This document shows positions 9,823-22,028 of a stretch of DNA of 22,028 bases, piece by piece. Both the position numbers and the translations under genes were made by a program. Numbering within the stretch: the first letter of the stretch is position 1; the number at the start of each line of letters is the position of its first letter. Source of the DNA: a virus; IMG/VR virus record IMGVR_UViG_3300020195_000933, positions 1 through 22,028 of that record. One strand, given 5' to 3'. The notes below the pieces were generated by a model. That model worked only from the letters and a program-made list of their open reading frames with translations, made no database searches and was not told the origin of the DNA.

Positions 9823-10221
9823 GTGAGGGCGATCACCCTCCACCCCGAGTGGGCCGCCGCGGTGGTCCACCTCGGAAAGTGGGTGGAGAACCGGACGTGG
9901 AAGCCCCCGGAGTCCGTGATCGGGCAACGGGTGGCCATCCACGCAGGGAGACGCGTTCGGGACCTCCCCCGGATGGTCCAGGTGGCCCGGTCGGTCGGTC
10001 TGGAGGTCAGCCAGGAGGGTTCTCGGGTCGTGTCCGGAGGGGTCGAGGTCCCGATCGTCCTGTCCTCGATCGTGGCGTGCGTGACCCTCGGGGGGGTGGT
10101 CACCGACGCTCCGAGTGGGTGGGCGGTCCCCGGGTCGTTCCACTGGCTCCTGGACGACATCACTCCGATCGTCCCGGTCCCGATCACCGGTCGACTCGGG
10201 TTGTGGGAGATCCCCGAGTAG
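9823..10221 (+). CDS. ASCH-domain protein
   Basis: The 132-aa product begins MRAITLHPEWAAAV, then 'GKWVENRTWKPP' (residues 18-29) and 'IGQRVAIHAGR' (33-43). This is the characteristic ASCH/PUA-like pattern (G.K..E.R.W followed by G.R.AIHA). A Val-rich beta region (IVLSSIVACVTLGGVV) and a closing strand (GRLGLWEIPE) complete the beta-barrel. ASCH domains bind RNA or modified nucleic acids and are common in phages. The start is GTG at 9823, twelve bases after the preceding stop. The gene converges with the leftward ABC-GNAT gene and overlaps its 3' end by 38 bases. The exact substrate is unknown. Confidence 0.85.
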   Translation: MRAITLHPEWAAAVVHLGKWVENRTWKPPESVIGQRVAIHAGRRVRDLPRMVQVARSVGLEVSQEGSRVVSGGVEVPIVLSSIVACVTLGGVVTDAPSGWAVPGSFHWLLDDITPIVPVPITGRLGLWEIPE

Positions 10222-11326
10222 GGTCCCGGAGCGAGGTCATGGCCCGCTCGAACTCGTCCCGCGTTGCCCGAGGTCCGACATACCGGAACGAGGCGGTGAC
10301 GCGGTTTGCGGACTTTGCAAACCGCCCACGTCGGGTTCGAGCGTCCACGGGGCCCTCTTGCACCCGCGACGGTGCCCGCGTCATCCGCCAGAGCTTCGAA
10401 CGGGCCCGATGCCGCACGAACGCGGGGTTGCTCGAGCAGACGATGTACGGCTTATCGGCCGAGAACAGCCACCCCATCCACTCGGCGAGCGCGTTCCCGA
10501 TTCCCATGCCCTGGTAGTCGGGGAGGCAGACCACCCGGTGCCCCCGCCAGAACGAGACCTGTCCGGGAGCGACGGTGGCCGCGCCGAACGCGACCGGGAC
10601 CCCATCCCACATCGCGAGGAAGCACCGCGCGGGCTGGTGGATGTCGCTGTTCAGGTAGTGGTGCTGCTTGAATAGCTGCCACGCCTGACGATGGACCGGG
10701 ACAATGTCGAGGTTAACCCTAGGTCGCTGTTGAACCTCCCTCCAGCGGAACAGGGACTCGTGCGGCTCGCAGATCCAGTCCGGCTGGAGCCACTCGAGCA
10801 CGTCGTAGTGGCATCCGACGCCGACGAACCGCCGGCCGCCGCGACGAACGGCCTTGCTCACCGCTGCGCACGCCGCTCGAGCAACCTGCCGGTCCACGAC
10901 CGACGTGAACTCGTCGATCACGACCAGGTCCTCGGCCTCGGCGAGCGCGCGCGCCATCGTCGCTCGGAACTTCTCACCGGTTGAGAGCACCTGGAACGGC
11001 CGGAGCCAGCTCGGCGGCGAGCTGAAGCCGACGGCGGAGAGCCACCCGGTCACGTCCTTGATCCCGAGCTCGGGCCCGAACCCGTCGAGCACCGATCGGT
11101 CCGCGGGCCAGACGAGCTCGTCGACGATGTGCTCCCCGAACAGCTCGCGAGCGATCGTGGACTTCCCCGCACCCGACGGACCGACGATCAGCCCGATCTG
11201 CCACTCCCGATCCTCGAGCGGGAGATCGAGCGACCACCGGACCTCGGCCGTCGCCGCGGCCGGCAGCTCGAACATGGACTCGGCCTGCATCACGCGCGGC
11301 GTGCGCGCGACGACCGACGACCTCAC
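10184..11326 (-). CDS. ABC-type ATPase fused to a GNAT acetyltransferase-like domain
   Basis: The 380-aa protein has two parts. Residues about 20-195 are a soluble ABC ATPase: Walker A GPSGAGKS (49-56), signature LSTGEK (114-119), Walker B with catalytic Glu in VVIDE (135-139) and a switch His in 'GVGCHYDV'. There is no membrane domain. Residues about 205-380 look like a GNAT fold: 'QLFKQHHYLN', 'GVPVAFGAATV', then the acyl-CoA-binding turn in 'PDYQGMGIGNALAEW' (271-277). This matches the ATPase-acetyltransferase fusion family COG2401. The GNAT half also recalls Mu Mom-type DNA-modifying proteins, though that link is inference. The GTG start at 11326 overlaps the ParB-like stop (GTGA); ATG 11290 is an alternative. 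Confidence 0.85.
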   Translation of the reverse strand: MRSSVVARTPRVMQAESMFELPAAATAEVRWSLDLPLEDREWQIGLIVGPSGAGKSTIARELFGEHIVDELVWPADRSVLDGFGPELGIKDVTGWLSAVGFSSPPSWLRPFQVLSTGEKFRATMARALAEAEDLVVIDEFTSVVDRQVARAACAAVSKAVRRGGRRFVGVGCHYDVLEWLQPDWICEPHESLFRWREVQQRPRVNLDIVPVHRQAWQLFKQHHYLNSDIHQPARCFLAMWDGVPVAFGAATVAPGQVSFWRGHRVVCLPDYQGMGIGNALAEWMGWLFSADKPYIVCSSNPAFVRHRARSKLWRMTRAPSRVQEGPVDARTRRGRFAKSANRVTASFRYVGPRATRDEFERAMTSLRDPTRGSPTTRVDR

Positions 11327-12069
11327 GCAATCAATGCGCGGCACGCGATCCCCTCCCGCTCGAGCAATCGAAGGATCTCGCCCTGGTGCTGTTCGTCGGT
11401 GCACTCGATGAGCACCTGGTACAGAGCGTCGTCGAGCTCGTCGGACTGGTCCCACGACTCCGCCTCCGACTCGGGCTCCACGAGCCTCTGGAGCTCGGCC
11501 TCCGACCACCCCAGCGTCGTGATGTCCCGGTCCTCCGCTTGGAGCTGGCGGAGCACGTCCCCGAGGCCGTCGGACCACTCCGCGAGCTCGCCCACCCTGT
11601 TGTCCGCGAGCGCGAGCATGTGGGCGTCGGCGGGGTCCAAGTCCATGAACCGCACGGGCACCCGGTCGAGCTTGAGCCGCTTCGCCGCCATGTACCTGGT
11701 GTGGCCGGCGATGATCTCGCCGTCGGCCGCGCGGGCGATGATCGGCGAGGCGAAGCCGAACCGGCGGATGGAGCGGGCCACCTCCTCCACCGCCGCGGCG
11801 TTCTGCCTTGGGTTGCCGGGCCACGGCCGCAGCCGGCCGATCGGCACCCAGCTGGCGGCGGCGGCCTCTTCGGCCAGCCGCGGCGGTGCAGCCGTGCCGG
11901 CCGTGCCGGCCGCCGCATTGCCGGCCGGCGCCGCTGCGGGCTGCCGTTTTCTGCCGGCCGGCCGCCGCTTCTCCACGTCCTGGCCATGTTCCGGTGGTCC
12001 CATGGTGTCAAGCCCCTGCACCAAAAAAATTTTGCCGGCACCCTCAGAGAGAGAGAGCCGGACTACCAT
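11323..12069 (-). CDS. ParB/Srx-like N-terminal domain protein
   Basis: A low-complexity Ala/Pro/Lys/Arg-rich N-terminus (to about residue 70) precedes a ParB-fold domain. The domain opens with 'VPIGRLRPWPGNPRQN' and runs through 'SIRRFGFASPIIA', the key 'GEIIAGHTRYMAAKRL' (117-132) and 'MLALADNRVGELAEW' (151-165). The last element is typical of ParB-like domains linked to DNA methyltransferases in phages rather than of chromosome-partition ParB, and no partition HTH follows. The C-terminal region is acidic and helical. It may act on DNA, possibly CTP-dependent, with the ABC-GNAT protein encoded next (GTGA overlap). ATG 12069 has GAGGT upstream; ATG 12003 is an alternative start that avoids a simple-repeat region. 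Confidence 0.85.
   Translation of the reverse strand: MVVRLSLSEGAGKIFLVQGLDTMGPPEHGQDVEKRRPAGRKRQPAAAPAGNAAAGTAGTAAPPRLAEEAAAASWVPIGRLRPWPGNPRQNAAAVEEVARSIRRFGFASPIIARAADGEIIAGHTRYMAAKRLKLDRVPVRFMDLDPADAHMLALADNRVGELAEWSDGLGDVLRQLQAEDRDITTLGWSEAELQRLVEPESEAESWDQSDELDDALYQVLIECTDEQHQGEILRLLEREGIACRALIA
12023..12057. repeat. Simple-sequence tracts at the ParB-like 5' end
   Basis: A7T4 (12023-12033) and (AG)6 (12046-12057) lie within 50 bases of the ATG at 12069 and upstream of the alternative ATG at 12003. In leftward reading they are a T7 and a (CT)6 run inside the first 16 codons. They could allow slippage, or mark a non-coding leader if translation starts at 12003. Confidence 0.55.
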
Positions 12070-12164
12070 TCGACCTCGGATCGGCTCGCTGATCTAGGTC
12101 CTGACGATGAGACCTGCGCGTCACCGTCCGCCTCGCTCACGCTGTACCGGTCAGCGGCGCTCAT
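12063..12164 (-). CDS. Possible 33-aa microprotein
   Basis: A short leftward frame starts at an ATG overlapping the stop of the preceding gene (ATGA) and ends in a TAG that overlaps the ATG of the ParB-like gene. The product is Ser-rich and hydrophilic (MSAADRYSVSEADGDAQV...) with no recognisable domain. The ribosome-site-like GAGGAGGA is very close to the ATG. The exact stop-start junctions on both sides support translation, perhaps as a coupling leader, but chance cannot be excluded. Confidence 0.35.
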   Translation of the reverse strand: MSAADRYSVSEADGDAQVSSSGPRSASRSEVEW

Positions 12165-12328
12165 TCCTCCTCGACCCAGTCCCCGAGCTCCCTGTCGTGC
12201 GGCGTCTCCCGCAGCAGCGGCGGCCTCCCGAGGAACGCGTCCAGGTGCCGGTCCTCCACGTCGACGTAGGCCAGGTGCACCTCGCAGTACATCAGCCCCG
12301 CCTCGTTCACGTCACCGTGAGCCGGCAT
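12161..12328 (-). CDS. Small acidic protein of unknown function (55 aa)
   Basis: The ATG at 12328 has a good Shine-Dalgarno (GGAAGGTG, four bases before ATG) and the frame overlaps the previous gene by 17 bases, so a real gene is likely despite its size. The protein reads MPAHGDVNEAGLMYCEV then 'HLAYVDVEDRHLDAFLG' and a Pro/Arg segment, ending in an acidic WVEEE. One Cys, no membrane segment. I do not recognise it. It belongs to the string of small proteins between the double-HTH regulator and the ParB-like gene. Confidence 0.6.
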   Translation of the reverse strand: MPAHGDVNEAGLMYCEVHLAYVDVEDRHLDAFLGRPPLLRETPHDRELGDWVEEE

Positions 12329-12500
12329 CTTTCACCTTCCCGACCGCGGCCAGGCTGCGCTTGCCCGTCCTGTCGTGAACCATCTCCCAGTGGACCTCCA
12401 TGACGCCCTCGAGTTCGACCTCGGTACTCTCGTCGCTCACCACGAGAACCCTGGTACCGTGCACCGTCCCGTCGCTCTCGATCCGAACGTTGGACTTCAT
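12312..12500 (-). CDS. Small beta-rich phage protein (62 aa)
   Basis: The ATG at 12500 overlaps the regulator stop (ATGA) and is preceded by GGAGGAGGG, a strong ribosome site that fixes the start. The 62-aa sequence alternates short strands: 'NVRIESDGTVHGTRVLVV', 'TEVELEGVMEVHWEMV', 'KRSLAAVGKVKDA'. This N.R...DGT..GTRV pattern is seen in small uncharacterised phage proteins, but no function is known to me. It is compact and soluble. It shares the DNA-metabolism operon. Confidence 0.7.
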   Translation of the reverse strand: MKSNVRIESDGTVHGTRVLVVSDESTEVELEGVMEVHWEMVHDRTGKRSLAAVGKVKDAGSR

Positions 12501-12919
12501 CCCTCCTCCTCCCGTCCGAGCAGCCGCTCGAACCACTCGCGCACCGCTGCCACGCTCTTCCACCAGGGTTCCGCCTTCCTGTCGCCCCGCTCCTTCCGCT
12601 TCCGCGTGAGCGTGTTCCGGCCCACACCGAGCGCTATGGCTGCCTGTCGCCACCCGACAACCGGCCCCCCGGCCTCGTGGTGCACTTTGGTGCGTCTTGG
12701 TGCGTCGCTGTCATCTCCAGGAGCCTCCCCGGTTACCGGGTCGAGTCGCAACGCCTGCTCCAGGGCGGCGAGCGTGTCCAGGTTGAACGTCTCCCCGTCC
12801 AGGAACCGGCGGACCGTCCGTTCGTGTAGTCCAGCGCGGATGGCGACCTGCTTGGTGGCCAGCCCCTTACGCTCGATGGCCTGACGGATGCGGGCGCGGT
12901 GGGTGTCCTGGAGGCTCAC
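12497..12919 (-). CDS. Regulator with an XRE HTH and a second excisionase/MerR-like HTH
   Basis: Residues 1-60 form an XRE-type HTH: 'RIRQAIERKGLATKQVAIRAGLHERTVRRFLDGE', with a good recognition-helix pattern. After an acidic linker (70-85), residues 87-134 read as a second winged or MerR/excisionase-like HTH: 'VVGWRQAAIALGVGRNTLTRKRKE' followed by 'WWKSVAAVREWFERLL'. Two different DNA-binding modules in 140 residues suggest a protein bridging or bending two sites. The GTG start at 12919 overlaps the stop of the TM microprotein (GTGA), which excludes the longer in-frame extension. It could regulate replication or late genes; the target is unknown. Confidence 0.7.
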   Translation of the reverse strand: MSLQDTHRARIRQAIERKGLATKQVAIRAGLHERTVRRFLDGETFNLDTLAALEQALRLDPVTGEAPGDDSDAPRRTKVHHEAGGPVVGWRQAAIALGVGRNTLTRKRKERGDRKAEPWWKSVAAVREWFERLLGREEEG

Positions 12920-13047
12920 GGTCCCATCCACAAGCAAACCAGCTCCAACCCGGCCCACACGCACCCAGCGAGGAGCAGGAGCAGGACGGCACCCCGGATG
13001 CAGGTGACCAACAGCTCGCGGTTGCCGTCCAGGTCGGGGTCTCTCAT
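12916..13047 (-). CDS. Single-pass membrane microprotein (43 aa)
   Basis: The ATG at 13047 overlaps the RusA stop (ATGA) and the TGA overlaps the next GTG, so the frame is exactly tiled between two genes. The product has an Asp/Arg N-terminus (MRDPDLDGNRELLV) and then a strongly hydrophobic stretch 'GAVLLLLLAGCVWAGLELV' long enough to span the membrane. This is a common form of phage microprotein; the role is unknown. Confidence 0.65.
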   Translation of the reverse strand: MRDPDLDGNRELLVTCIRGAVLLLLLAGCVWAGLELVCLWMGP

Positions 13048-13586
13048 GCGGACCACACGCGGATCTCAACGCACGGTTCCTCACCGGCCCCGGCGTAGAC
13101 CTTCCTCGACCCGCCGTCCTCCACCACGAGCCGGTCGTCCGCGAGCACCCCGGCCTGGACCAACACGTCGAGCGGACCCTTGCGCAGGTTGTCCAGGTCC
13201 TCGACTCCGAGGTGGTAGTTCCGGCCCTCGGTCCAGGGGAACGGGTATCGGAACGCCTCGCCCCGAACGATGAGCCAGCGCGGGGCCTTCAGCGGCCTCG
13301 GCATCGCCAGGATCACCTGGGCGATCAGGGCTGCCCGGATGGGTGCCCGGCCGGCCCAGTAGGCCACGAGGAGCCCGATCGCCTCGACCTTCCACGCGGC
13401 GTAGGTCGGCTCGTCGTACACGTGGGCGGCCCATCCGCTCTTCGTCCGGTCGCTCCGCATGGCCATCGCCAGGGGCCGCTTTGCGACCTGGGGCCGGATG
13501 GGGATCCGGCAGGCCACGAGCGGCACGCCCCGCTGCGGTCGCGGGGGGAGCGGGACAAGCTCGAGCTGGCGGACCGTGGAGATCAC
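13044..13586 (-). CDS. rusA: RusA-family Holliday junction resolvase
   Basis: RusA cuts four-way DNA junctions during phage recombination and replication. The 180-aa product has the RusA layout: an N-terminal beta region opening with 'VACRIPIRPQ', a helical middle, then the metal-binding acidic cluster 'VEDLDNLRKGPLDVL' (Asp130, Asp132, Asp140) and 'GVLADDRLVVEDG' (Asp150/151), ending with 'EEPCVEIRVW'. In the family these aspartates bind magnesium. It is longer than E. coli RusA (about 120 residues), mostly through an N-terminal extension and an insert with WLIVRGEAFRYPFPW near 104-118. The GTG start at 13586 overlaps the preceding stop (GTGA). It lies downstream of replication genes, a usual place. 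Confidence 0.85.
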   Translation of the reverse strand: MISTVRQLELVPLPPRPQRGVPLVACRIPIRPQVAKRPLAMAMRSDRTKSGWAAHVYDEPTYAAWKVEAIGLLVAYWAGRAPIRAALIAQVILAMPRPLKAPRWLIVRGEAFRYPFPWTEGRNYHLGVEDLDNLRKGPLDVLVQAGVLADDRLVVEDGGSRKVYAGAGEEPCVEIRVWSA

Positions 13587-14272
13587 GTCTTCCTTGCCGG
13601 GAGCTGGCGCACGTTCACGTTGGTGTCCGACCTGGGGCCGACGTGGTCCTCGAGCAGGGCGGCGACCAGCCGTTCGGTCTCGTTCAGCTGCCGTCGCTGG
13701 CGGCGCGAGCGGTAGGCCGACCGGAACGCGGCTCGGTGAGCGACCATCGTGTCGTCCTCGGCCATGCCAAGCGCCCGCCACCCCCCGCAGGCGTTGACGC
13801 CCGCGAACAGGGCCGCCGATCGGTGAGCGTCGTCCCGCGGTAGACCCGCGCCGACCCGCTGCGCCCTCGCCATCCGATCGTGGTCCCCCTTCTCCCGGGC
13901 CAGCGCGTAGGCAGCGCGGAGCCTTGCCCGGAGGTCCTCGAGCTCGTCGGGCGAGGTAGGCGCGCTGTCCCGCCCACGCCACTGGAGCAGCCGGAGCGCC
14001 TCGGACCAGGCGGCCTCGCTGTCGTCGACCAGGTCGGGATCGGGGAGCGCGTGGAGGAGCGCGCCCGGGAGCGGCCACCGCCCGAACCGCGAATCGTCCG
14101 ACCGGAGCCAGGCGGTCGTCATCGCGAGGAGCCGGTCGTCCGCCACGTCCGCGAGGACGAGCGACCAGGCGTCCAGCGCCCGCTCGGCCTCTCGCTCATC
14201 GACGAACGGGCGCGGCACCCCGGCAGCCTGGAGCAGGCCCCAGCACGCGATCACTCCGGGTCGGCTTGCCAT
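13583..14272 (-). CDS. Putative replicative helicase loader (G39P-like N-terminus)
   Basis: The 229-aa protein starts at an ATG with GGAG closely upstream and follows the replication-initiator-like gene, overlapping it by 22 bases. Its N-terminal domain reads as helices: 'ERALDAWSLVLADVADDRLLAMTTAWLRSDD' then 'GRWPLPGALLHALPD'. This resembles the helicase-loader pattern ('AW...L.D......A...W....RWPPT.A.L') of phage G39P-like proteins that deliver DnaB-type helicase. A charged helical middle (ELEDLRARLRAAYALARE) and a basic C-terminal region follow. No ATPase motif is present, as in G39P. The call rests on pattern and context; a primosome accessory of another kind is possible. Confidence 0.5.
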   Translation of the reverse strand: MASRPGVIACWGLLQAAGVPRPFVDEREAERALDAWSLVLADVADDRLLAMTTAWLRSDDSRFGRWPLPGALLHALPDPDLVDDSEAAWSEALRLLQWRGRDSAPTSPDELEDLRARLRAAYALAREKGDHDRMARAQRVGAGLPRDDAHRSAALFAGVNACGGWRALGMAEDDTMVAHRAAFRSAYRSRRQRRQLNETERLVAALLEDHVGPRSDTNVNVRQLPARKT

Positions 14273-15225
14273 ATGTCTCCTCCGTCCTCACGTTTCCTGA
14301 ACTCGCGGTCCATGAGAGCTTCCAGCACGCCGTCCCCGGCGTGGCCATGGCGGTGGCGGTGGCCGTTGGTCTTCGGCGGAGCTCGGGCGGTGCCCGAGGG
14401 TCGATCGGCGTGGATCCGCCACAGTTCGGCGTACTCGTCGAGGTGCCGGAGAACGGTTTCGACGGTCAACCCGTCGTATTCCCGGAGCTTCACCGCCCGG
14501 TCGATCTGCGACTCCCCGGCGAACCGCAGCGCGTCGAGCACCTTCTCTTGGTCCTTCCGGCATTCTCGATAGAGACGCTGCCCGACCTTGCTCGACCGTT
14601 CGGGGCCTTTGCTCGGTCGGCGGCCAATCGCTCGGTGGACGATCTCGCCGAAGTAGGTCGCCGCCTGCAGATAGGCCATGGAGGCCATGTCGAACACCGT
14701 CGGGTGCTCTTCCGTGAGCACCGGAAGGTCGTCCTCGGGCTCCAACCCCACCGGGGCGCCCGGCGGCCCGACCGACAGTTGTTCCTTGTCCCCGGGTGAG
14801 GGTGAGGGTGAGGGTGAGGGTGGATCAACGCGCGTGTGGTGCGCGCTGGGTCCGGCCTGGTGCAGGCTGGGTCCGGCTGGGTCCGGCGGGCGATATTCCC
14901 CAGGTTCGCCCGTGTCGGGTTGGGTCCGGCTGGGTCCGGCTGGGTCCGGGCTGGTGCACGCTGGGTCCGGAGGCCTCGGCGAGGCGAGTTGCGGAATCTC
15001 CCCGCGCTTCGGATCCCACCATCTCGCCGGGGTTCTCAACAGCCCTCGGACCCGACCGTCGGACCACCCCCAGCGGTCGGCGAGCACCCGGCGAGACGGG
15101 ACCTTCCCGTCCTGGTCGACCCACCAGCGCAGGTCGATGCACGCCGTCTCGTCCTTCCACGGACGGGGCAGGGCCTCGGCGGTGGCTCGCCACCAGTCCG
15201 CCTGCACCGGGACCCACCCGCTCAC
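14251..15225 (-). CDS. Replication initiator / replisome-organiser-like protein
   Basis: The 324-aa protein has an N-terminal winged-HTH-like region (residues about 8-75), where 'VPSRRVLADRWGWSDGRVRG' is the expected recognition element of phage replisome organisers. A Pro/Ser/Asp-rich linker (about 82-150) contains repeated PDPAGPS and (PS)n peptides. A helical C-terminal domain (about 170-275) includes 'YLQAATYFGEIVHRAIG' and 'VETVLRHLDEYAELWR'. The linker DNA carries seven TGGGTCCGG copies and a G-run array, so the origin may lie inside the gene, as in lambda O. The GTG start at 15225 overlaps the methyltransferase stop (GTGA), ruling out the longer frame. Helicase-loader and RusA genes follow. 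Confidence 0.7.
   Translation of the reverse strand: MSGWVPVQADWWRATAEALPRPWKDETACIDLRWWVDQDGKVPSRRVLADRWGWSDGRVRGLLRTPARWWDPKRGEIPQLASPRPPDPACTSPDPAGPSRTQPDTGEPGEYRPPDPAGPSLHQAGPSAHHTRVDPPSPSPSPSPGDKEQLSVGPPGAPVGLEPEDDLPVLTEEHPTVFDMASMAYLQAATYFGEIVHRAIGRRPSKGPERSSKVGQRLYRECRKDQEKVLDALRFAGESQIDRAVKLREYDGLTVETVLRHLDEYAELWRIHADRPSGTARAPPKTNGHRHRHGHAGDGVLEALMDREFRKREDGGDIWQADPE
14794..14823 (+). repeat. GGGTGA tandem repeat, G-quadruplex-type
   Basis: Four GGGTGA units (14794-14817) plus GGGTGG give six consecutive GGG runs with three-base TGA loops on the rightward strand. The leftward strand encodes the Pro-Ser part of the linker. The spacing is ideal for a G-quadruplex. Confidence 0.8.
14847..14970. 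repeat. Seven phased TGGGTCCGG repeats, candidate origin iterons
   Basis: Exact TGGGTCCGG copies begin at 14847, 14868, 14878, 14921, 14931, 14941 and 14962. Spacings are 21, 10, 43, 10, 10 and 21, close to whole turns of DNA. They encode the PDPAGPS-type peptide repeats, but the helical phasing and location inside the initiator-like gene fit initiator-binding iterons. Confidence 0.6.
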
Positions 15226-15866
15226 CGCCACCCCAACCACCGGAGGCGGGTGTCCCGCTCTCCCCGGATCCAGAGCACCAGGATGGAGTCCGCGCTGTCG
15301 CTCGCCCTACGTTGGCCCGGACCGCCCCATTTCGGCCGAGGCACCAGGACCCAGATCGTGGCGGGCGGGTGCTTCTCCCACCACGGCAGCCGGTCCAGGG
15401 ATCCGAGCACGGTCCCGCGGAGCAGGTACGCCACCACAGGCGCGAGCTCGAGGGACCGGTCGAGCCACCCGACCAGGTCCCCACCGTACGGCGGGTTGCC
15501 GAGGATCAGGTCGACCGGATCGGGATCGAACGCTCGGAAGTCCGCAACGCCAGCCAGGTCGGCATGGGCCAGACCGGGGGCGTCGGGGTCAACGTCGATA
15601 CCGAACCGTTCGGCCCACGGCCAGACCTCGGCGGCCGCCTCCAGCCACGCGCCTCCTCCGACCGACGGCTCGAGCAGCCGCCTGGGCCACCGCGGGAGCT
15701 GCCACCGCGCCTCGGCGTCGATCTCCGCCACGCAGGCGCGGGCGACCTCGAGCGGGGTCCAGTACCCGTCGAGCGAGTCACGCTCCCCCGGTCCGAGGGC
15801 GCGGGGACCCTCCCCGAGGACGAGCTGACCGTCCCGGATCGCGCTGTGGTGGCGAGGCCCGGTCAC
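15222..15866 (-). CDS. Orphan N6-adenine DNA methyltransferase
   Basis: This 214-aa enzyme should transfer a methyl group from SAM to adenine N6. Motif X is seen as 'GYWTPLEVA' (34-42), motif I (SAM-binding) as 'LLEPSVGGGAWL' (64-75) and the catalytic motif IV as 'ILGNPPYGG' (121-129). The order X-I-IV is that of gamma-class N6-adenine enzymes. The protein is short and lacks an evident target-recognition domain, and no restriction enzyme is nearby, so it is an orphan phage methylase, perhaps protecting DNA or marking origins. The GTG start overlaps the preceding stop (GTGA), and GAGGCG lies upstream. Confidence 0.88.
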   Translation of the reverse strand: MTGPRHHSAIRDGQLVLGEGPRALGPGERDSLDGYWTPLEVARACVAEIDAEARWQLPRWPRRLLEPSVGGGAWLEAAAEVWPWAERFGIDVDPDAPGLAHADLAGVADFRAFDPDPVDLILGNPPYGGDLVGWLDRSLELAPVVAYLLRGTVLGSLDRLPWWEKHPPATIWVLVPRPKWGGPGQRRASDSADSILVLWIRGERDTRLRWLGWR

Positions 15867-16807
15867 GCTTCGGACGCCTCGTCCGCCCCGGCTGCGGCGA
15901 GCGTTTCTGGACTGATCACCACGAGCCCGTGGTCACCCAACGCGTCGGCGTCCTCGTCGTCGTCCTCCAGGTCGGTCACCACCGCGGCCGGCGGCTTCGA
16001 CTTCCGCCTCTTGGCGGTGTCCTTGGCCAGCTCGAGGAGGTTCGCCTGGCGCGGGAGGCGGTGCTCCTGCCAGAGCATCCCCTGGCCCGACGCCGGGTCG
16101 AACCCATACTCCCGGAGGAGGCGCTCATGGGTCGGGTGCGCCTGAGCGTGGGCAACCGCCATCGCCTGGCGAACGCCGCCGACGCCGAACCGCGCGAGGG
16201 TGCTGGCGTGCGCGACGATGTCCGCCTTCCGCAGCACCGGCCGGTCTCCCGTCTCCATCCCGCAATACGCGAGCAGGTGGTGGAGTCCGCGCTCCTGCTC
16301 GTCGTCGTCCGCGAGCAACCACCAGGGGAGCGACAACTCGAGGCGGAAGGCCGGAGCCGGTCCCTGCCCGGTCCACAACAGCCGATCGGGGATCGACACC
16401 GCTTTGACCCGGCCCGCCAGAGCCTCGGTCAGGACCATGTCGCGGACGACGATCGGTCGACGGGTCCAGCGGACCTCGATCACCTGCGCCGCCCAGGTCG
16501 AGAACTCCGGCAGCGGGCGAAGCCGGTTCAGGACCGGCCCTGCCAGGTCCTCGAACCCCGCCACCAGGTCCTGGTTGCGGATCCAGACCGGCACGCCGCC
16601 GGACTCGTCGAGGATGCCGGACGCCCACGAGACCCAGGAGCCCCGGGCGACGCTCGGGAGATCCTTGCGGGGCTCCTCCCGGTTCGCGTGCCGGGCCTTC
16701 CGCCGCGCGTCCTCGTAGTCCTGCACCTTGGTGGCGACGCGGGAGAGGACCTCGCTGCAGCCGGAGGCGATGTAGTCGAGGAGGGTCGAGGCGGGGGCCG
16801 TGTTCAT
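15863..16807 (-). CDS. Phage metallopeptidase-like protein with degenerate zinc site
   Basis: The 314-aa protein starts at ATG 16807 (ATGA overlap). Residues about 155-208 resemble the 'putative phage metallopeptidase' family: a strand 'AFRLELSLPWWLLADDDEQ', then 'ERGLHHLLAYCGM' (173-184) and 'RPVLRKADIVAHASTLARFGV' at the position of the family's 'R.HD.EEF..V..RYG' element. The expected HExxH is replaced by HHLLAY: Glu becomes Leu and the second His becomes Tyr (Tyr181). Catalysis is therefore doubtful. N-terminal helices and a C-terminal Lys/Arg-rich then acidic tail (DLEDDDEDADALG) flank this. It may be a DNA-linked scaffold; the homology is from remembered family patterns. Confidence 0.6.
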   Translation of the reverse strand: MNTAPASTLLDYIASGCSEVLSRVATKVQDYEDARRKARHANREEPRKDLPSVARGSWVSWASGILDESGGVPVWIRNQDLVAGFEDLAGPVLNRLRPLPEFSTWAAQVIEVRWTRRPIVVRDMVLTEALAGRVKAVSIPDRLLWTGQGPAPAFRLELSLPWWLLADDDEQERGLHHLLAYCGMETGDRPVLRKADIVAHASTLARFGVGGVRQAMAVAHAQAHPTHERLLREYGFDPASGQGMLWQEHRLPRQANLLELAKDTAKRRKSKPPAAVVTDLEDDDEDADALGDHGLVVISPETLAAAGADEASEA

Positions 16808-17076
16808 GGGGTCTCCGAGGTGGGGAGGTGGGCGCCGCGCTCGATGGCGGCGGCGAGGTTGCGGGCGACCGCCCACGGGGCCTGGTCCTGGTGGGCGATC
16901 GTCTCGGCTTCAGCGCGGATCCACTCGACGATCCGCCTCCGCTCGGCGAGCGCCTCGATGTGGTCACCGAGCACGTGCGGACGGAACTCGGGGAACACTT
17001 CGCCCTCGAGCCGGTCGAGACGTTGGGACACGGCGCGCTCGAGGAGGCGGATCCGCTCGCGGAGCTCGTCGCTCAT
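16804..17076 (-). CDS. Small helical protein, paralogue of the next upstream gene (90 aa)
   Basis: The ATG at 17076 overlaps the preceding stop (ATGA). The 90-aa product opens with a coiled-coil-like helix (ELRERIRLLERAVSQRL), followed by 'VLGDHIEALAERRRIVEWI' and 'AIERGAHLP'. The same C-terminal elements ('VLGDALAERTQIVEWL', 'AIQGGAHHVP') occur in the adjacent upstream gene, so the two are tandem duplicates that have diverged. No catalytic or metal motif is visible and I do not recognise the family. It could be a small DNA-replication accessory or an oligomerising regulator. Confidence 0.65.
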   Translation of the reverse strand: MSDELRERIRLLERAVSQRLDRLEGEVFPEFRPHVLGDHIEALAERRRIVEWIRAEAETIAHQDQAPWAVARNLAAAIERGAHLPTSETP

Positions 17077-17324
17077 CGCCGCACCGGGACGTGGTGGGCA
17101 CCGCCCTGAATCGCGTCGGCGAGGGTGATCCCGTACGCCGAGAACTCGAGCTCGGGCGCCAGAGACCGCAGCCACTCCACGATCTGCGTCCTTTCGGCGA
17201 GCGCGTCACCGAGCACGATCACGCTGGGGCCGGGGCCGGGGGCCGAGAACACCCGGTCTTCGAGCCGAGCGACCCGCTTGTTGAGCGACAGGAGCTCGGG
17301 CAGCGACCGGACGTCGAGGAACAT
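17073..17324 (-). CDS. Small helical protein, tandem paralogue (83 aa)
   Basis: From ATG 17324 the 83-aa product reads 'LDVRSLPELLSLNKRVARLEDRVF' (helical, coiled-coil-like), a Gly/Pro turn, 'SVIVLGDALAERTQIVEWLRSL' and 'TLADAIQGGAHHVP'. Its second half matches the following gene and its first helix occupies the same place as that gene's N-terminal helix, which favours this start. An in-frame ATG at 17474 with GAGG upstream would add 50 Arg/Gly-rich residues and is an alternative. The function is unknown. Confidence 0.6.
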   Translation of the reverse strand: MFLDVRSLPELLSLNKRVARLEDRVFSAPGPGPSVIVLGDALAERTQIVEWLRSLAPELEFSAYGITLADAIQGGAHHVPVRR

Positions 17325-17546
17325 GGGCGCCGTGGGGTCCTCGTCGCGGTTCGGGACGGGCCCGGGCGTCTCGCCCTGCTCGCTCCACAGACCGTCGCTG
17401 TCCTTCCGGCGCTGGGTCAAGATCCACCCACGAGAACCCCGGCCGGGCTGGCACCCGACACGGGGCGGCCGCATGGGCCTCGGACGTGGTTGGTCGGTCT
17501 CGTGCCAGCGGGACCTACGACGAAGACAGACTCACCCACCGGCTTT

Positions 17547-17559
17547 GACAGCTGCTGTC
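17547..17559. promoter_or_regulatory. 13-bp perfect palindrome in the 17325-17562 gap
   Basis: GACAGC-T-GCTGTC is a perfect inverted repeat in a 238-base region between the TM-protein gene and the tandem paralogues. It may be a regulator site for the leftward operon. Apart from this and a possible N-terminal extension of the paralogue, I see nothing else in the gap; the overlapping TTGACA has no matching -10. Confidence 0.35.
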
Positions 17560-17562
17560 TGC

Positions 17563-17805
17563 TCACGACCACTCCGGGTCAACAGGGGTTGCGTCGTTGG
17601 GGTCGGTGTTCCGCAGGCCGACAGCAGCAGCGAGCTCGCGGTCGAGCTGGAAGAGCTCCGCCCGAGCCTCGGCGGCGACCCTCGCGAGCTCTCGCCACCC
17701 CGCTTCGCGACGGCAGGCCGCCCGGTAGCTCGACCACCAGAGCAGGTGGGTCGCCAGGTTCAGGCCGACGATCAGGACCACGCCGAGGACGTTGGTCAAG
17801 GTCAA
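17563..17805 (-). CDS. Small N-terminally membrane-anchored protein (about 80 aa)
   Basis: The leftward frame encodes an N-terminal hydrophobic span 'VLGVVLIVGLNLATHLLWW' followed by a basic segment and a long helix 'ARVAAEARAELFQLDRELAAAV', typical of a membrane-anchored coiled-coil protein with the helix in the cytoplasm, as in many small phage i-spanin-like or accessory proteins. The start is uncertain: TTG at 17805 or 17799, or GTG 17781, none with a clear ribosome site. It is the most upstream gene of the leftward operon and is divergent from the exported-protein gene. Confidence 0.55.
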   Translation of the reverse strand: MTLTNVLGVVLIVGLNLATHLLWWSSYRAACRREAGWRELARVAAEARAELFQLDRELAAAVGLRNTDPNDATPVDPEWS

Positions 17806-17876
17806 CGGCGCACCGGAATTGCGGGCGAACCTAAAGTCCGGCGGCCAGGGTTCCGAAGAGGCCGGCGGAGGTTCCG

Positions 17877-18590
17877 TTGATCCTGTTGCTGACGAGCGCC
17901 GCTTTGGCCCAGGAGGCCCCCGCGGCCGCCTGCCCCTGGACGAAGAGGATCCAATCGGTCTGGTCCGACGAGGATCGGGTTCAGATCGACGGCGCCCAAT
18001 ACGAGGTGGTGGGCCGCGCGGCGTGGGAGCCCTTCCAGGGGCAGCTCAAGGCGTGCGGCATGACGGATGCGGCCGACGCGCTCGTGGCGTGGCGAAAACA
18101 GCGCCGGACCACGAACTGGAGCATCGTACTCGGCTGCGCGACCATGGGTGTCGGCTTCATCACCACGCCAATCGCCGCGTCCTCGGCCGGAAACCGGCGC
18201 GAGCGAATGGAGCAAGCAATCCTCGGCTGGTCCCCACCGGGCGGAGAGGACGCGGCGGCGGGTGTTCCCCTCGCGCGCCCCGCGCTTCCGGGTCAGGGGA
18301 AGCTCGCCGCCGGCTTTCAGGGGTTGGCGTATGGCCCCGTCCCGGAAGCCCCCCCGCTCGCCGCATGCGTGGATGGCGAGGCCGAGGGCATGCGGTGGCG
18401 GTGCTCGCACACGCTGGGCACCCTCGAGGACGTCACCGTCTTCTTTCGGGTCCAGGATCAGCTCTACACAGAGACAGGTCACGCTGAAGCCGGCGTGACG
18501 TCTTGGGACGGGTCATCACCGGGGGCGTCGGATGAGATCCGCGACCGCAAATCCAGCGCAAACGAGATCTCTCGTTCGGGGCAGCCGTAG
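17877..18590 (+). CDS. Exported or membrane-anchored cargo protein, unknown function
   Basis: The TTG start at 17877 follows a strong Shine-Dalgarno (GGCGGAGGTTCCG). The 237-aa product opens with a very short signal peptide, MILLLTSAALAQ, with a likely cleavage after ALA (residue 11). A second hydrophobic segment lies near 81-102 (WSIVLGCATMGVGFITTPIA). There are several Cys residues (19, 60, 87 and later) that could form disulfides outside the cell. No known domain is seen. It is the only rightward gene between the replication operon and the regulatory switch, a typical place for a lysogenic-conversion gene. The 3' end overlaps the leftward XRE gene by 112 bases. Confidence 0.65.
   Translation: MILLLTSAALAQEAPAAACPWTKRIQSVWSDEDRVQIDGAQYEVVGRAAWEPFQGQLKACGMTDAADALVAWRKQRRTTNWSIVLGCATMGVGFITTPIAASSAGNRRERMEQAILGWSPPGGEDAAAGVPLARPALPGQGKLAAGFQGLAYGPVPEAPPLAACVDGEAEGMRWRCSHTLGTLEDVTVFFRVQDQLYTETGHAEAGVTSWDGSSPGASDEIRDRKSSANEISRSGQP
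18478..18499. terminator. Hairpin at the 3' end of the leftward XRE gene
   Basis: GTCACGC (18478-18484) and GCGTGAC (18493-18499) pair across an 8-base loop, covering the leftward stop codon. Leftward, CTGTCTCTGTGT follows, a weak T-rich tail, so a poor intrinsic terminator is possible. It also lies inside the convergent cargo gene. Confidence 0.35.
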
Positions 18591-18748
18591 AACTCCAACA
18601 GCCGGCGGATGTACACCGGGTCTGGCTTGGAGCGCGACGACTCCCACAGGTACAGCGTTTGGCGCGGGATCCGGAGGCCCCTGCCGGTCTCGGTCACCCC
18701 TCGACCCGCTGCAAGTCGTCGGTCGCGTAAGTACTCGCCGAGCCGCAT
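18479..18748 (-). CDS. XRE-family HTH regulator (leftward, candidate repressor)
   Basis: The 89-aa protein is an XRE HTH: 'RLGEYLRDRRLAAGRGVTETGRGLRIPRQTLYLWESSRSKPDP' contains the usual helix 2-3 pattern (T.T..G....R.T...WE...S.P), followed by a helical 'RRLLEFYGCPEREI' and a short acidic tail. It lacks a peptidase or dimerisation domain like that of lambda CI, so it may act as a small Cro- or P22-C2-type repressor. The ATG at 18748 has GGGGGG upstream; ATG 18760 also fits but lies very near the predicted transcription start. Its promoter carries the operator also found before the rightward operon, so autoregulation is likely. Confidence 0.8.
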   Translation of the reverse strand: MRLGEYLRDRRLAAGRGVTETGRGLRIPRQTLYLWESSRSKPDPVYIRRLLEFYGCPEREISFALDLRSRISSDAPGDDPSQDVTPASA

Positions 18749-18758
18749 TCGGCCCCCC

Positions 18759-18775
18759 ATATGCTGGGGGCATAC
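18759..18775. promoter_or_regulatory. 17-bp operator, site 1
   Basis: ATATGCTGGGGGCATAC has inverted arms TATGC/GCATA around a five-base centre. Read leftward it starts at the third base of the -10 box of the regulator promoter. It matches site 2 at 19277-19293 in arm, spacing and register. Confidence 0.7.
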
Positions 18776-18800
18776 TACTGCCGACGGACCTCGGTGTCCA
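18772..18800 (-). promoter_or_regulatory. Leftward promoter of the XRE gene
   Basis: Leftward, TGGACA (18800-18795) and TAGTAT (18777-18772) are separated by exactly 17 bases, a good sigma-70-type pair. Both hexamers and the spacer length are identical to the rightward promoter at 19252-19280. Confidence 0.7.
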
Positions 18801-18839
18801 GCCGTGACATACGCGGTCCGCACGCACTACCCGGTCGAG

Positions 18840-19220
18840 ATGGACAAGCAGGAGCTGAAGGACCACGTGGCGGCCGTGGTAAGAGCGCGGATGGATGCTC
18901 TCGGGCTGTCCTACCGAAGGGCCGCGGGCGCGCGGGCCGAAGATGGCGGACCGAACCACTCAACGGTCCAGCAGATCGCGGTCGGAGAAACCAATCCGAA
19001 GCTCGCGACCCTCGCGGGCGTGGCGCGATATCTCCGAGCGCGGTGGGAAGTTCGCCTCGTCGGAGACGAAGAGCGGCCCCGCCTCCGGAGCGAAGAGCGC
19101 CAGAAGCTGCTCGATAGAATCTCGGCGGAAATCGACGTCCTCCTGGACCACGAGGTCGAGCACCTCGCCGGCATGTTGCGGATCTACGGCGAGGGCCGCG
19201 AGCGCGGCAACCAGAAGTAG
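18840..19220 (+). CDS. XRE-like HTH regulator (rightward)
   Basis: The 126-aa protein has an N-terminal HTH region: 'LKDHVAAVVRARMDALGLSYRRAAGARA' then 'NHSTVQQIAVGETNPKLATLAGVARYL', which fits an XRE fold (first two helices, 'S.VQ.I..G..NP...TL...A'). The C-terminal half is a charged helical region (RLRSEERQKLLDRISAEIDVLLDHEVEHL) suited to oligomerisation. ATG 18840 is chosen; GTG 18804 upstream in frame is possible but has no ribosome site. It lies divergent from the leftward XRE gene with a short shared control region, the usual CI/Cro layout. Which of the two is the maintenance repressor cannot be told from sequence alone. Confidence 0.75.
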   Translation: MDKQELKDHVAAVVRARMDALGLSYRRAAGARAEDGGPNHSTVQQIAVGETNPKLATLAGVARYLRARWEVRLVGDEERPRLRSEERQKLLDRISAEIDVLLDHEVEHLAGMLRIYGEGRERGNQK

Positions 19221-19251
19221 AGCAGGACATAACAGCAAAGTATGCCGCCAC

Positions 19252-19280
19252 TGGACACCCCCGCAAGTGCCGACTAGTAT
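19252..19280 (+). promoter_or_regulatory. Rightward promoter of the recombination operon
   Basis: TGGACA (19252-19257) and TAGTAT (19275-19280) with a 17-base spacer precede the rightward early operon. The -35 and -10 hexamers equal those of the leftward XRE promoter, while the spacer sequences differ. Confidence 0.72.
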
Positions 19281-19293
19281 GGTGGGACCATAC
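19277..19293. promoter_or_regulatory. 17-bp operator, site 2
   Basis: GTATGGTGGGACCATAC has perfect 6-bp arms GTATGG/CCATAC. It begins at the third base of the -10 box, the same register as site 1. The shared consensus, reading site 1 on the given strand, is RTATGSTGGGRSCATAC. Repressor binding would block RNA polymerase. Confidence 0.75.
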
Positions 19294-19325
19294 GGGACGC
19301 CGCCCGGCTTCCGTGCCTCCAGCTA

Positions 19326-19343
19326 ACTGTACAGGTGGACAGT
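19326..19343. promoter_or_regulatory. CTGT-N8-ACAG (LexA-box-like) palindrome
   Basis: ACTGT-N8-ACAGT has the CTGT-N8-ACAG form of enterobacterial SOS boxes. It lies about 40 bases after the predicted start of the rightward message and ends immediately before the ATG at 19344. The host's LexA motif is unknown, so this is tentative. Confidence 0.4.
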
Positions 19344-19496
19344 ATGGCGCCCAATTCTGTCCGCCCCCAGGAGACCTCGATGCGCTCTATGTCGGCTTCC
19401 GGGCTGCCACGTGGCAACACCCTCGACACGCTCCGAGACGGGATCGTGGTCGGGGTCTACCGGGTGGACGGCACCCGGACGTCGGTGGCGTCATGA
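19344..19496 (+). CDS. Small protein heading the rightward operon (50 or 38 aa)
   Basis: Two in-frame ATGs exist. That at 19380 has a good ribosome site (AGGAGACCTCG) and gives 38 aa; that at 19344 has only GGTGG and gives 50 aa. The stop TGA overlaps the next ATG (ATGA), supporting translation. The sequence ends 'NTLDTLRDGIVVGVYRVDGTRTSVAS', a small beta-turn-rich module of unknown function. It is the first gene after the operator-controlled promoter. Confidence 0.55.
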   Translation: MAPNSVRPQETSMRSMSASGLPRGNTLDTLRDGIVVGVYRVDGTRTSVAS

Positions 19497-20044
19497 CTCC
19501 CGACCTGACCGAACTGTTCGTCCAGCTGCGGGACGTGCTTCTCACCGCCCAGGTTCGAGCGACCCGGAGCGGACCGACCGGTGGATACGGCCAGGAGCGG
19601 GTCTGCCTCTCCGGAGACGTGACGCTGGCGCGGGTCCAGGGGCTGGTCCTGCAGCTCGACCAAGTGCTCAGCCGGACGTGTGAGGCATACGGCCGCGTGA
19701 ACGACTTCGCGTTCGAGCTCGAGCGCAATCTCGAGGGACAGCGCCTCGAGGATCCGGACGCCATGTCGCCCGAGGCCCGGGACGCTCGGCTGCGGCTGGT
19801 CGCTCACCTGAAGCTGGTCGCCTCCGCGATGCACGCGATCGAGTGGGTCGACAGCTGCGACTACGGGCCCGACGACGAGATCCCAGCGATTCGCGCGGTC
19901 CTCGGCCGGGAGGCGAGGGGCTGCGGCGGTTGTGGTGGTCGAGGCGTGGTCGAAACGCGGGGTCCCGCTGGCCCGGGGAACTGGGAGCCACCGTGGGTCG
20001 AGAGCCCGTGCGAGACCTGCAGCGGGTCGGGGGTGGCACCATGA
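19493..20044 (+). CDS. Helical protein with C-terminal DnaJ-type CxxCxGxG zinc motifs
   Basis: The ATG at 19493 overlaps the preceding stop (ATGA); the longer in-frame start at 19313 would run through the operator region and is rejected. Of 183 residues, 1-140 are mainly helical (LTELFVQLRDVLLTAQV, LARVQGLVLQLDQVLS, ARLRLVAHLKLVASAMHAIE). The C-terminus has two CxxCxGxG elements, CGGCGGRG (144-151) and CETCSGSG (173-180), the DnaJ cysteine-rich pattern. A zinc-binding single-stranded-DNA or protein-binding tail is likely. No known family comes to mind. It is cotranscribed with recombination genes. Confidence 0.75.
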   Translation: MTPDLTELFVQLRDVLLTAQVRATRSGPTGGYGQERVCLSGDVTLARVQGLVLQLDQVLSRTCEAYGRVNDFAFELERNLEGQRLEDPDAMSPEARDARLRLVAHLKLVASAMHAIEWVDSCDYGPDDEIPAIRAVLGREARGCGGCGGRGVVETRGPAGPGNWEPPWVESPCETCSGSGVAP

Positions 20045-20175
20045 CCCTCGCCGACACGGTGAGCCTGTACGTCGCGGTGCTCCTCCCCCTCCTTCGGCGC
20101 GCCGACGTCTGTCGTGCCGTGGATTCCCTGCTCGCTCGTGACGCCCTTGCTGGGTGGTGGCTGGTGTCCCAGTGA
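20041..20175 (+). CDS. Small hydrophobic-helical protein (44 aa)
   Basis: The ATG overlaps the previous stop (ATGA) and the TGA overlaps the following GTG, so the frame is exactly tiled. The product reads 'TLADTVSLYVAVLLPLLRRADVCRAVDSLLARDALAGWW', an amphipathic to moderately hydrophobic helix pair. It may be membrane-associated or a small binding peptide. The function is unknown. Confidence 0.55.
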   Translation: MTLADTVSLYVAVLLPLLRRADVCRAVDSLLARDALAGWWLVSQ

Positions 20176-20333
20176 CGCTCACCTGGCAGCAGGAGTCGGC
20201 GCTCGACCGCGAGGTCCAGGAGCTCGAGCGGATGGTGGATGAGGGGGAGATCAGCGAGGCGGCGTTCCGCCGAGCGATGCGGAACCTCCACGAGGACGTG
20301 CGGGAGATCGAACAAGGCCGGGAGACCACATGA
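20172..20333 (+). CDS. Small charged coiled-coil protein (53 aa)
   Basis: The GTG start overlaps the preceding TGA and the stop overlaps the next ATG. The 53-aa sequence is almost all charged helix: 'LDREVQELERMVDEGEISEAAFRRAMRNLHEDVREIE', with a helix-turn-helix-hairpin look ('DEGEISEAAFRRAM' is a common phage motif). A short coiled-coil partner protein is likely. Confidence 0.6.
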   Translation: MTLTWQQESALDREVQELERMVDEGEISEAAFRRAMRNLHEDVREIEQGRETT

Positions 20334-20425
20334 CCAACGTCGCCCGCCTGGCCGCACTGCTCGCGCTGACCTGCCTCGCCGTGACGATGTTCCTCGCCCT
20401 CCTGGTCCTCGGGGAGGCCTGGTGA
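20330..20425 (+). CDS. TM microprotein (31 aa)
   Basis: An ATG overlapping the previous stop (ATGA) opens a 31-aa frame whose TGA overlaps the exonuclease GTG. The sequence has one hydrophobic span, 'LAALLALTCLAVTMFLALLV', and almost nothing else. Exact tiling supports reality; it may serve as a membrane anchor or just as a coupling leader. Confidence 0.5.
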   Translation: MTNVARLAALLALTCLAVTMFLALLVLGEAW

Positions 20426-21396
20426 CCGTCGCCCACCGGTACCCCACCAGGGCGGACTGGCTCGCCCACCGCCGGATCGGCTCGTCCGACGTGTCGGCGA
20501 TCCTCGGGTTGTCTCGGTACCGATCGGAGTGGGACGTGCTCCTCCGGCTCAAGGGCGAGCTGTCGGAGGGTCCGTCGTCACCGGCGGCGGACCGTGGCCG
20601 CCTGCTCGAGCCTGTCGTCCTCCGCCGCTACGGCTCGGCGACGGGGCGGCAGGTGCGTCCGACGCCGCCGAACACGCTCTGGACCCGAGACGAGTGGGCG
20701 AGCGCGACGCCGGACGCGTTCGCCGACGGGGAGATCGTGCTCGAGGCGAAGACAGACGCCCGACGCGAGCGGTGGGGTGAGCCGCAGACGATCGAGCGGT
20801 GGGAGCCCGGCGCCGAGCTCGTGGTTCGACCCGACTACTACCTGCAGGTCCAACATCAGCTCTGGGTCCTCGACCTGGAGCTCGCGGACCTCGCGGTGCT
20901 CGTCCCCGGCGACGACCCGTTTCTGCCCGAGCTTCGGATCTTCCGGCTGCACCGCGACGAGGAGGTGGTGGCGGCGGTGGTCGACCGGCTGTCGACGTGG
21001 TGGCAGCGGCACGTGGTCGCGGGCGAGCCCCCCGAGCTCGATGGCTCGGCATCGGCGGGCCGGTGGCTGGCGAGCTGGCCCAACCTGGGCGGGGAGCGAG
21101 CGGCGACTCCCGGCGAGGTCGCCCTGGCGGCCGGGTACGAGATGGCGCGCCGCAACGCGCGGGCCTGGGAAGAGGCGCGGAACCGGTACGGGCAACTCCT
21201 TGTCGCTGCTGCCGGCGGCGTGCGTCGGCTGGCCCTGCCGCGGGGCCGCGTCACCGTCGTCCGCAACTCGGGCCGGACCCGGCTCGACGAGGCGGCTCTT
21301 TTGAGCGACCACCCCGAGCTCGGGGCGGTCCTGGAACTCTATCGGCGTCGGACCGAAGCTTCTGTATTTCCGCGAATCAGCGGGCTGGAGACATGA
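20422..21396 (+). CDS. YqaJ/lambda-type exonuclease (viral recombinase nuclease)
   Basis: The 324-aa nuclease would resect DNA ends 5' to 3' for annealing-based recombination. The GTG start at 20422 overlaps the previous stop (GTGA). Motifs are in order: 'RIGSSDVSAILGLSRY' (18-33), Glu63 in 'DRGRLLEPVVLRRYG', Asp98 in 'SATPDAFADGEIVLEAK' with the E-x-K of the PD-(D/E)XK site at 108-110, then 'YYLQVQHQLWVLDLELADLAVL' (139-160), the conserved Gln helix. The C-terminal third is helical and Arg-rich. Length fits the YqaJ family. The gene directly downstream is the usual place for its annealing partner. Confidence 0.9.
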   Translation: MTVAHRYPTRADWLAHRRIGSSDVSAILGLSRYRSEWDVLLRLKGELSEGPSSPAADRGRLLEPVVLRRYGSATGRQVRPTPPNTLWTRDEWASATPDAFADGEIVLEAKTDARRERWGEPQTIERWEPGAELVVRPDYYLQVQHQLWVLDLELADLAVLVPGDDPFLPELRIFRLHRDEEVVAAVVDRLSTWWQRHVVAGEPPELDGSASAGRWLASWPNLGGERAATPGEVALAAGYEMARRNARAWEEARNRYGQLLVAAAGGVRRLALPRGRVTVVRNSGRTRLDEAALLSDHPELGAVLELYRRRTEASVFPRISGLET

Positions 21397-22028
21397 TGGA
21401 AGACACGACCTGGTGGGCCGAGCAGCGGGCGATCCCGATGGACGACGGACTCTTGATGGACGATGCGCCGATCGTCGTCCGCGGCGAGACGCAGGGGCTC
21501 GCCCGGCGGTCGGAGTACGCCGAGCTCGCGGAGCTTGCGTCGGCGGGCGGCCCCAGGGATCCGGCGGCGCTCCTCCGGGAGGCGCGGCGGGTCGGTGAGC
21601 TCCTGGCCGAGCGGGCGTACTACGACTTCCCCGCGGGCCAGGGTCGGGTGACGGGTCCGTCGATCGACCTCATGGACGCGCTGGCCATCGTCTGGGGTCG
21701 GGTCGTCTCCCGGGTCGAGATCGTCGACGAGCGCGCGAACCGGGTCCACCTCCGAGGTCGGGTGATCGACCTGCTGGCGCTCACCGCCGTCGAGCGCGAC
21801 TACGTCTCGGCTCTCGCTCCGGCCCCCGGGAAGTTCGCTCGGGACCCGGTCCAGTCGGACCGGTGGCGGGTCATGCAGCTCCAAAGCGCGAGCAGCAAGG
21901 CGATCCGCGGCGCCCTCGAGCACGCCCTCCCGGCCTGGCTGGTGGACACCGCGCTGCTCGCGGCCCGGGGTGCGGCTGCTCGCGCGGCGACGGGCGGCAA
22001 ACCCCTCCCGGAGGCCCGGGCCGCGAGC
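21393..22028 (+). CDS. Putative recombination partner (annealing-type) protein, partial
   Basis: The ATG at 21393 overlaps the exonuclease stop (ATGA), with a second ATG next to it. The frame is open for 212 codons to the window edge, so the C-terminus is missing. The sequence includes 'FPAGQGRVTGPSIDLMDALA' followed by 'IVWGRVVSRVEIVDERANR', which matches a 'GPS..L..ALA..WG.V' element I associate with phage proteins encoded beside YqaJ-type nucleases. It then has a helical 'RWRVMQLQSASSKAIRGALEHALPAWLV'. The exonuclease-plus-annealing-protein pairing (as in lambda Exo/Beta) suggests a single-strand annealing role, but no RecT, Erf or Rad52 signature is clear. Confidence 0.6.
   Translation, partial: MMEDTTWWAEQRAIPMDDGLLMDDAPIVVRGETQGLARRSEYAELAELASAGGPRDPAALLREARRVGELLAERAYYDFPAGQGRVTGPSIDLMDALAIVWGRVVSRVEIVDERANRVHLRGRVIDLLALTAVERDYVSALAPAPGKFARDPVQSDRWRVMQLQSASSKAIRGALEHALPAWLVDTALLAARGAAARAATGGKPLPEARAAS

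Follow-up and report, generated by a model that had tools for sequence, protein, structure and literature searches.

Do two matched promoters that share one candidate operator make a self-regulated switch for a phage recombination operon? The question is raised by IMG/VR record IMGVR_UViG_3300020195_000933, the whole of which (22,028 bp, 69.7% GC) is the window analyzed here. Its portal, terminase, and head-tail genes are on the minus strand, a rightward operon with a YqaJ/RecE-like recombination exonuclease forms its right end, and two genes encoding HTH proteins, XRE1 and XRE2, lie between the structural genes and the exonuclease operon. We consider it probable that this part of the record holds the repressor and early-control functions of a tailed phage that is unclassified. 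Two features by which CI/Cro-type immunity regions are recognized were found there: HTH regulator genes adjoin the phage early promoters, and related 17-mers, here putative operators, overlap both the regulator's own promoter and the early promoter in identical register. No integrase match was obtained among the proteins scanned (a subset of the ORFs of a record that is a fragment), and no Rfam match was obtained between positions 17,500 and 22,028. A ParB-like gene is present at 11323 to 12069.

The two promoters, P_L and P_R, point outward, away from each other, and were located by both pattern matching and a sigma-70 scan. P_L, on the minus strand, has its −35 element (TGGACA) at 18795 to 18800 and its −10 element (TAGTAT) at 18772 to 18777; P_R, on the plus strand, has the same hexamers at 19252 to 19257 and 19275 to 19280. 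From the spacing, the predicted start of P_L is an A at 18765, 7 nucleotides past the −10 element, and that of P_R is an A in the same register at 19287. The first-pass annotation had reported identical hexamers and 17-bp spacers for this pair, which agrees base for base with our reading, and had described the spacer sequences as different; they match at 6 of 17 positions, about chance level. A generic scan of positions 12,000 to 22,028 for sigma-70-like promoters found these two and no others, versus 0.3 expected, and no other place in the 22,028 bp fits TGGACA-N17-TAGTAT when as many as 2 mismatches are allowed.

When P_L and P_R are aligned, three runs of at least five bases agree: a GTATG 12 bp from the −35 element, CTGGACACC, and TAGTATG. 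To set a background for this likeness, promoter-like pairs were surveyed in the record (which contributes six of them) and in fetched loci, among them 80 loci carrying distant YqaJ relatives (best segments of ~40% identity). Similarity of the P_L/P_R pair outside the −10 element (z = 5.07) ranked 7th of 190,737 pairs, the top-ranked pair being a plain repeat; because the majority of loci had been trimmed at 6 kb around YqaJ, the rank is a measure of background rather than of how frequent the design is. An exact scan of IMG/VR for the combined promoter and operator pattern gave no match. In one surveyed locus from another phage (L069, positions 12327 to 12545, minus strand), two promoter-like sites share TGACTCACTC and GTTCG flanks (z = 5.58), and this may be a similar shared-operator pair.

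As the first-pass annotation had noted, each −10 element has at its third base the start of a 17-bp inverted repeat, which extends from about −10 to +7. The putative operator O_L at P_L occupies 18759 to 18775 (GTATGCCCCCAGCATAT in promoter orientation) and is a 6+5+6 repeat with its outermost pair mismatched; O_R at P_R occupies 19277 to 19293 (GTATGGTGGGACCATAC in promoter orientation) and is a perfect 7+3+7 repeat. Read in promoter orientation, the two sites have in common the arms GTATGS and SCATAY and the A at the predicted +1, but not a central TGGG. The earlier consensus read both sites on the plus strand, and for O_L it is this reading, opposite to its promoter, that brings out the TGGG. 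The mismatch-tolerant search that had been proposed as a check was run on the 22-kb fragment: RTATGSTGGGRSCATAC with up to 3 mismatches was confined to the two promoters, versus a shuffle expectation of 0.10 (the search returns three rows because the palindromic P_R site matches on both strands). An inverted repeat alone is common in this DNA, which contains 44 of 17 bp with five perfect outer pairs; among these 44, only O_L and O_R have TAT in the arm. What is unusual is the combination of identical arm sequence, a register that is the same at both promoters, and arms that are AT-rich although the DNA is 70% GC. Close relatives of the operator were not found in the collections searched.

The GTATG of the arms recurs upstream, an element absent from the first-pass annotation. 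Half-sites lie at 18808 to 18812 on the minus strand (about −47 to −43 of P_L) and at 19240 to 19244 on the plus strand, each exactly 12 bp upstream of its −35 element. A same-register coincidence of the GTATG type was seen in 3 of 400,000 random flank pairs drawn from the record, and 6 of the 11 occurrences of GTATG or CATAC in the 22 kb fall within one 600-bp stretch at the two promoters. The P_R leader also contains a hairpin (GGTGGACAG/CTGTCCGCC, 19334 to 19365, plus strand) just before the first ribosome-binding site, with a further GTATG at 19342. A role for this hairpin as an attenuator is unsupported (z = −1.0 relative to shuffles, with no T run).

XRE1 (89 amino acids; 18479 to 18748, minus strand) matches the HTH_31 profile with an E value of 4e-10 and is a candidate repressor; a GGGGGG ribosome-binding stretch lies upstream, and an alternative ATG is at 18760. 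XRE2 (126 amino acids; 18840 to 19220, plus strand) gives a weak XRE/HTH_3 match (E = 0.059) and has a predicted long C-terminal helix (low confidence). It lacks a clear ribosome-binding site, and the scan of 12,000 to 22,028 assigned it no sigma-70-like promoter of its own. AlphaFold models of both proteins were of low confidence (pLDDT of 58.6 and 57.0), and Foldseek found no significant match for the XRE1 model. PHROGs matches of the regulators were weak. In phage records, XRE1 retrieved one distant HTH protein and XRE2 none; beyond distant HTH domains, no kin of either were found in phages or viral contigs, nor of XRE1 in plasmids or genomes, and the 80 loci of distant YqaJ relatives held no relative of either. 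With no close XRE1 or XRE2 relative to allow operators to be compared with recognition helices, the binding protein is assigned here by position.

Downstream of P_R, the operon begins with a 38-amino-acid ORF (19380 to 19496, plus strand) preceded by AGGAG. Four small coupled ORFs follow on the same strand at 19493 to 20425, encoding 183 amino acids (with a weak DnaJ zinc-finger motif) and then 44, 53, and 31 amino acids. The YqaJ/RecE-like exonuclease gene (20422 to 21396, plus strand) matches phrog_434 at 6e-52, and a phrog_3657 protein (21396 to 22028, plus strand) runs past the end of the record; a phrog_3657-like stretch directly follows YqaJ in many other phage loci. Close relatives of XRE1, XRE2, YqaJ, or the terminase were not found in viral contigs, nor were any of XRE1 or YqaJ in genome contigs. 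The anatomy, from the XRE1 profile match to the identity of the exonuclease, gives good support to the earlier proposal that one operator is shared by an XRE gene and the recombination operon.

We favor the reading, which we regard as probable, that P_L and P_R are repressed together, through the shared candidate operators, by an HTH protein of the phage, XRE1 being the likeliest. XRE1 is preferred as the binder on grounds of position, in that the site lies on the promoter of XRE1 itself, and because its HTH match is strong. In this scheme, a sigma-70-type polymerase of the host would use P_L to transcribe XRE1 and P_R to transcribe the recombination operon. XRE1, most likely as a dimer and perhaps joined by XRE2 on the same sites, would bind the 17-bp palindromes. 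It is an established principle that an operator dimer and polymerase exclude each other where their sites overlap; as the repeats span about −10 to +7, any protein bound there would block RNA polymerase, and both promoters would be shut. The repressor would then limit its own synthesis and silence the early operon, with one threshold for both.

The part of the first-pass annotation that did not hold is its description of the arrangement as direct sequence evidence of self-regulated switching. When two promoters carry the same operator, the outcome is coordinate repression and negative feedback, not mutual antagonism. Two identical promoter-operator pairs are insufficient alone for a bistable switch, and for two stable states XRE2 would have to act in the manner of CI or MOR. 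If the locus is a true switch, XRE2, in the mirror image of the cI position, may supply the opposing arm. A quite different use of the same elements, which we think improbable, treats the −47 half-site and the palindrome as a two-part operator, on both promoters, of one regulator that at low concentration would help polymerase from upstream and at high concentration would block it from downstream; P_L and P_R would in that case form a synchronous pulse generator that fires together and shuts together, not a lysis-lysogeny switch.

Other explanations differ on what binds the sites, or on whether anything does. It is unlikely, though well short of negligible, that XRE2 rather than XRE1 is the operator-binding repressor, with XRE1 being a Cro-like early product or binding elsewhere. 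XRE2 does sit between two outward promoters as cI sits between lambda P_L and P_R, its lack of a consensus promoter is as expected of an activated P_RM-type promoter, and the recombination exonuclease lies on the P_R side here as exo lies on the lambda P_L side. Set against this CI-like position are the weak HTH match and poor expression signals of XRE2, and the fact that XRE1 is the gene directly carrying the putative operator over its own promoter.

GTATG-N7-CATAC might instead be recognized by a regulator of the host, such as a LexA-type SOS repressor, that ties the early promoters to host physiology, and host regulators can generally bind palindromes over the −10 element of phage early promoters. 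We regard a host regulator as quite improbable, however: the pattern is not known to match any SOS box, and next to the sites are two HTH genes of the phage itself, one of which is under a putative operator. Least probable of all, and to us very unlikely, is that the promoter likeness is a remnant of the duplication of one strong promoter, with incidental palindromes. The abundance of inverted repeats of this length would fit incidental palindromes, but simple duplication and drift would not selectively spare the arms: the spacers are at chance identity, while the arm bases on both sides and the upstream half-sites stay in register.

Joint repression of P_L and P_R by XRE1, the reading that we prefer, can be set beside known phage repressor regions. 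The order in lambda is cro - O_R/P_R/P_RM - cI - O_L/P_L - exo. As in the lambda immunity region, two outward early promoters have common operators (putative ones here) that overlap promoter elements, one HTH gene lies between the promoters while another is first on one arm, and the arm with its start past the cI-like gene carries a recombination exonuclease. The present arrangement is a mirror image, however (XRE1, P_L, XRE2, P_R, exonuclease, with XRE1 at the cro position); each promoter has one full palindrome and one half-site in place of three operators, and a convergent ORF at 17877 to 18590 probably breaks up the leftward unit past XRE1. Descent from a lambda-type region is not indicated, as no sequence relation of XRE1 or XRE2 to lambdoid CI/Cro was detected.

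The convergent ORF (plus strand) has a signal-peptide-like start and overlaps the 3′ end of XRE1. Its codon-position GC contents of 0.67, 0.57, and 0.83 are coding-like, it has no match in Pfam or NCBIfam, and it is possibly a moron. The presence of this plausible ORF casts doubt on an early operon that would extend leftward from XRE1 into the replication genes.

In TP901-1, small regulator genes are divergent, the CI operator overlaps the early promoter, and the distal part of mor contains another operator, O_D (PMC7250872). The present locus resembles this CI/MOR switch in its divergent small regulators, a putative operator over the early promoter, and a second one placed distally. Here, however, the distal site belongs to a complete promoter that lies 32 bp beyond XRE2, and XRE2 has no demonstrated likeness to MOR. 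The small repressor gp33 of mycobacteriophage BPs has operators at its early lytic and repressor promoters, and its full site is a palindrome plus a divergent second half; O_R lies between the −10 and −35 elements of P_R, O_Rep lies downstream of P_rep, and immunity depends on integration (PMC4557955). Operators at both promoters, putative in our case, and a full site of palindrome plus second half are common to BPs and the present region. The registers of O_R and O_Rep differ in BPs, whereas those at P_L and P_R are the same here, and no sequence relation between BPs gp33 and this region was found.

By analogy with these systems, the region appears to follow the same logic as known phage repressor regions, with unusually well matched promoters. 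It adds an example and not a new principle: a compact case in which the geometry of promoter and operator is the same for a probable repressor gene as for its target operon. For the regulators of a phage lineage that had no close relatives in the searched collections, it also provides an exact candidate operator, GTATGS-N5-SCATAY, together with the matched half-site upstream.

Several observations were made elsewhere in the window. A third Cro/C1-type HTH gene, at 12497 to 12919 (minus strand), is far from O_L and O_R and has no operator copy nearby. The minus-strand gene at 10184 to 11254 encodes a protein with an ABC-ATPase-like part (phrog_11143 at 7e-103); it was the sole gene tried alone that had clear relatives, in three viral contigs, which had nothing else detectable in common with the 22,028-bp record. 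Iteron-like tandem repeats at 14794 to 14970 (GGGTGA in 4.8 copies and a 10-bp GCTGGGTCCG unit in 12) lie inside a minus-strand gene (14251 to 15240) whose product has a low-complexity, Pro-rich middle, and these repeats are possibly a replication origin inside an O-like initiator gene.
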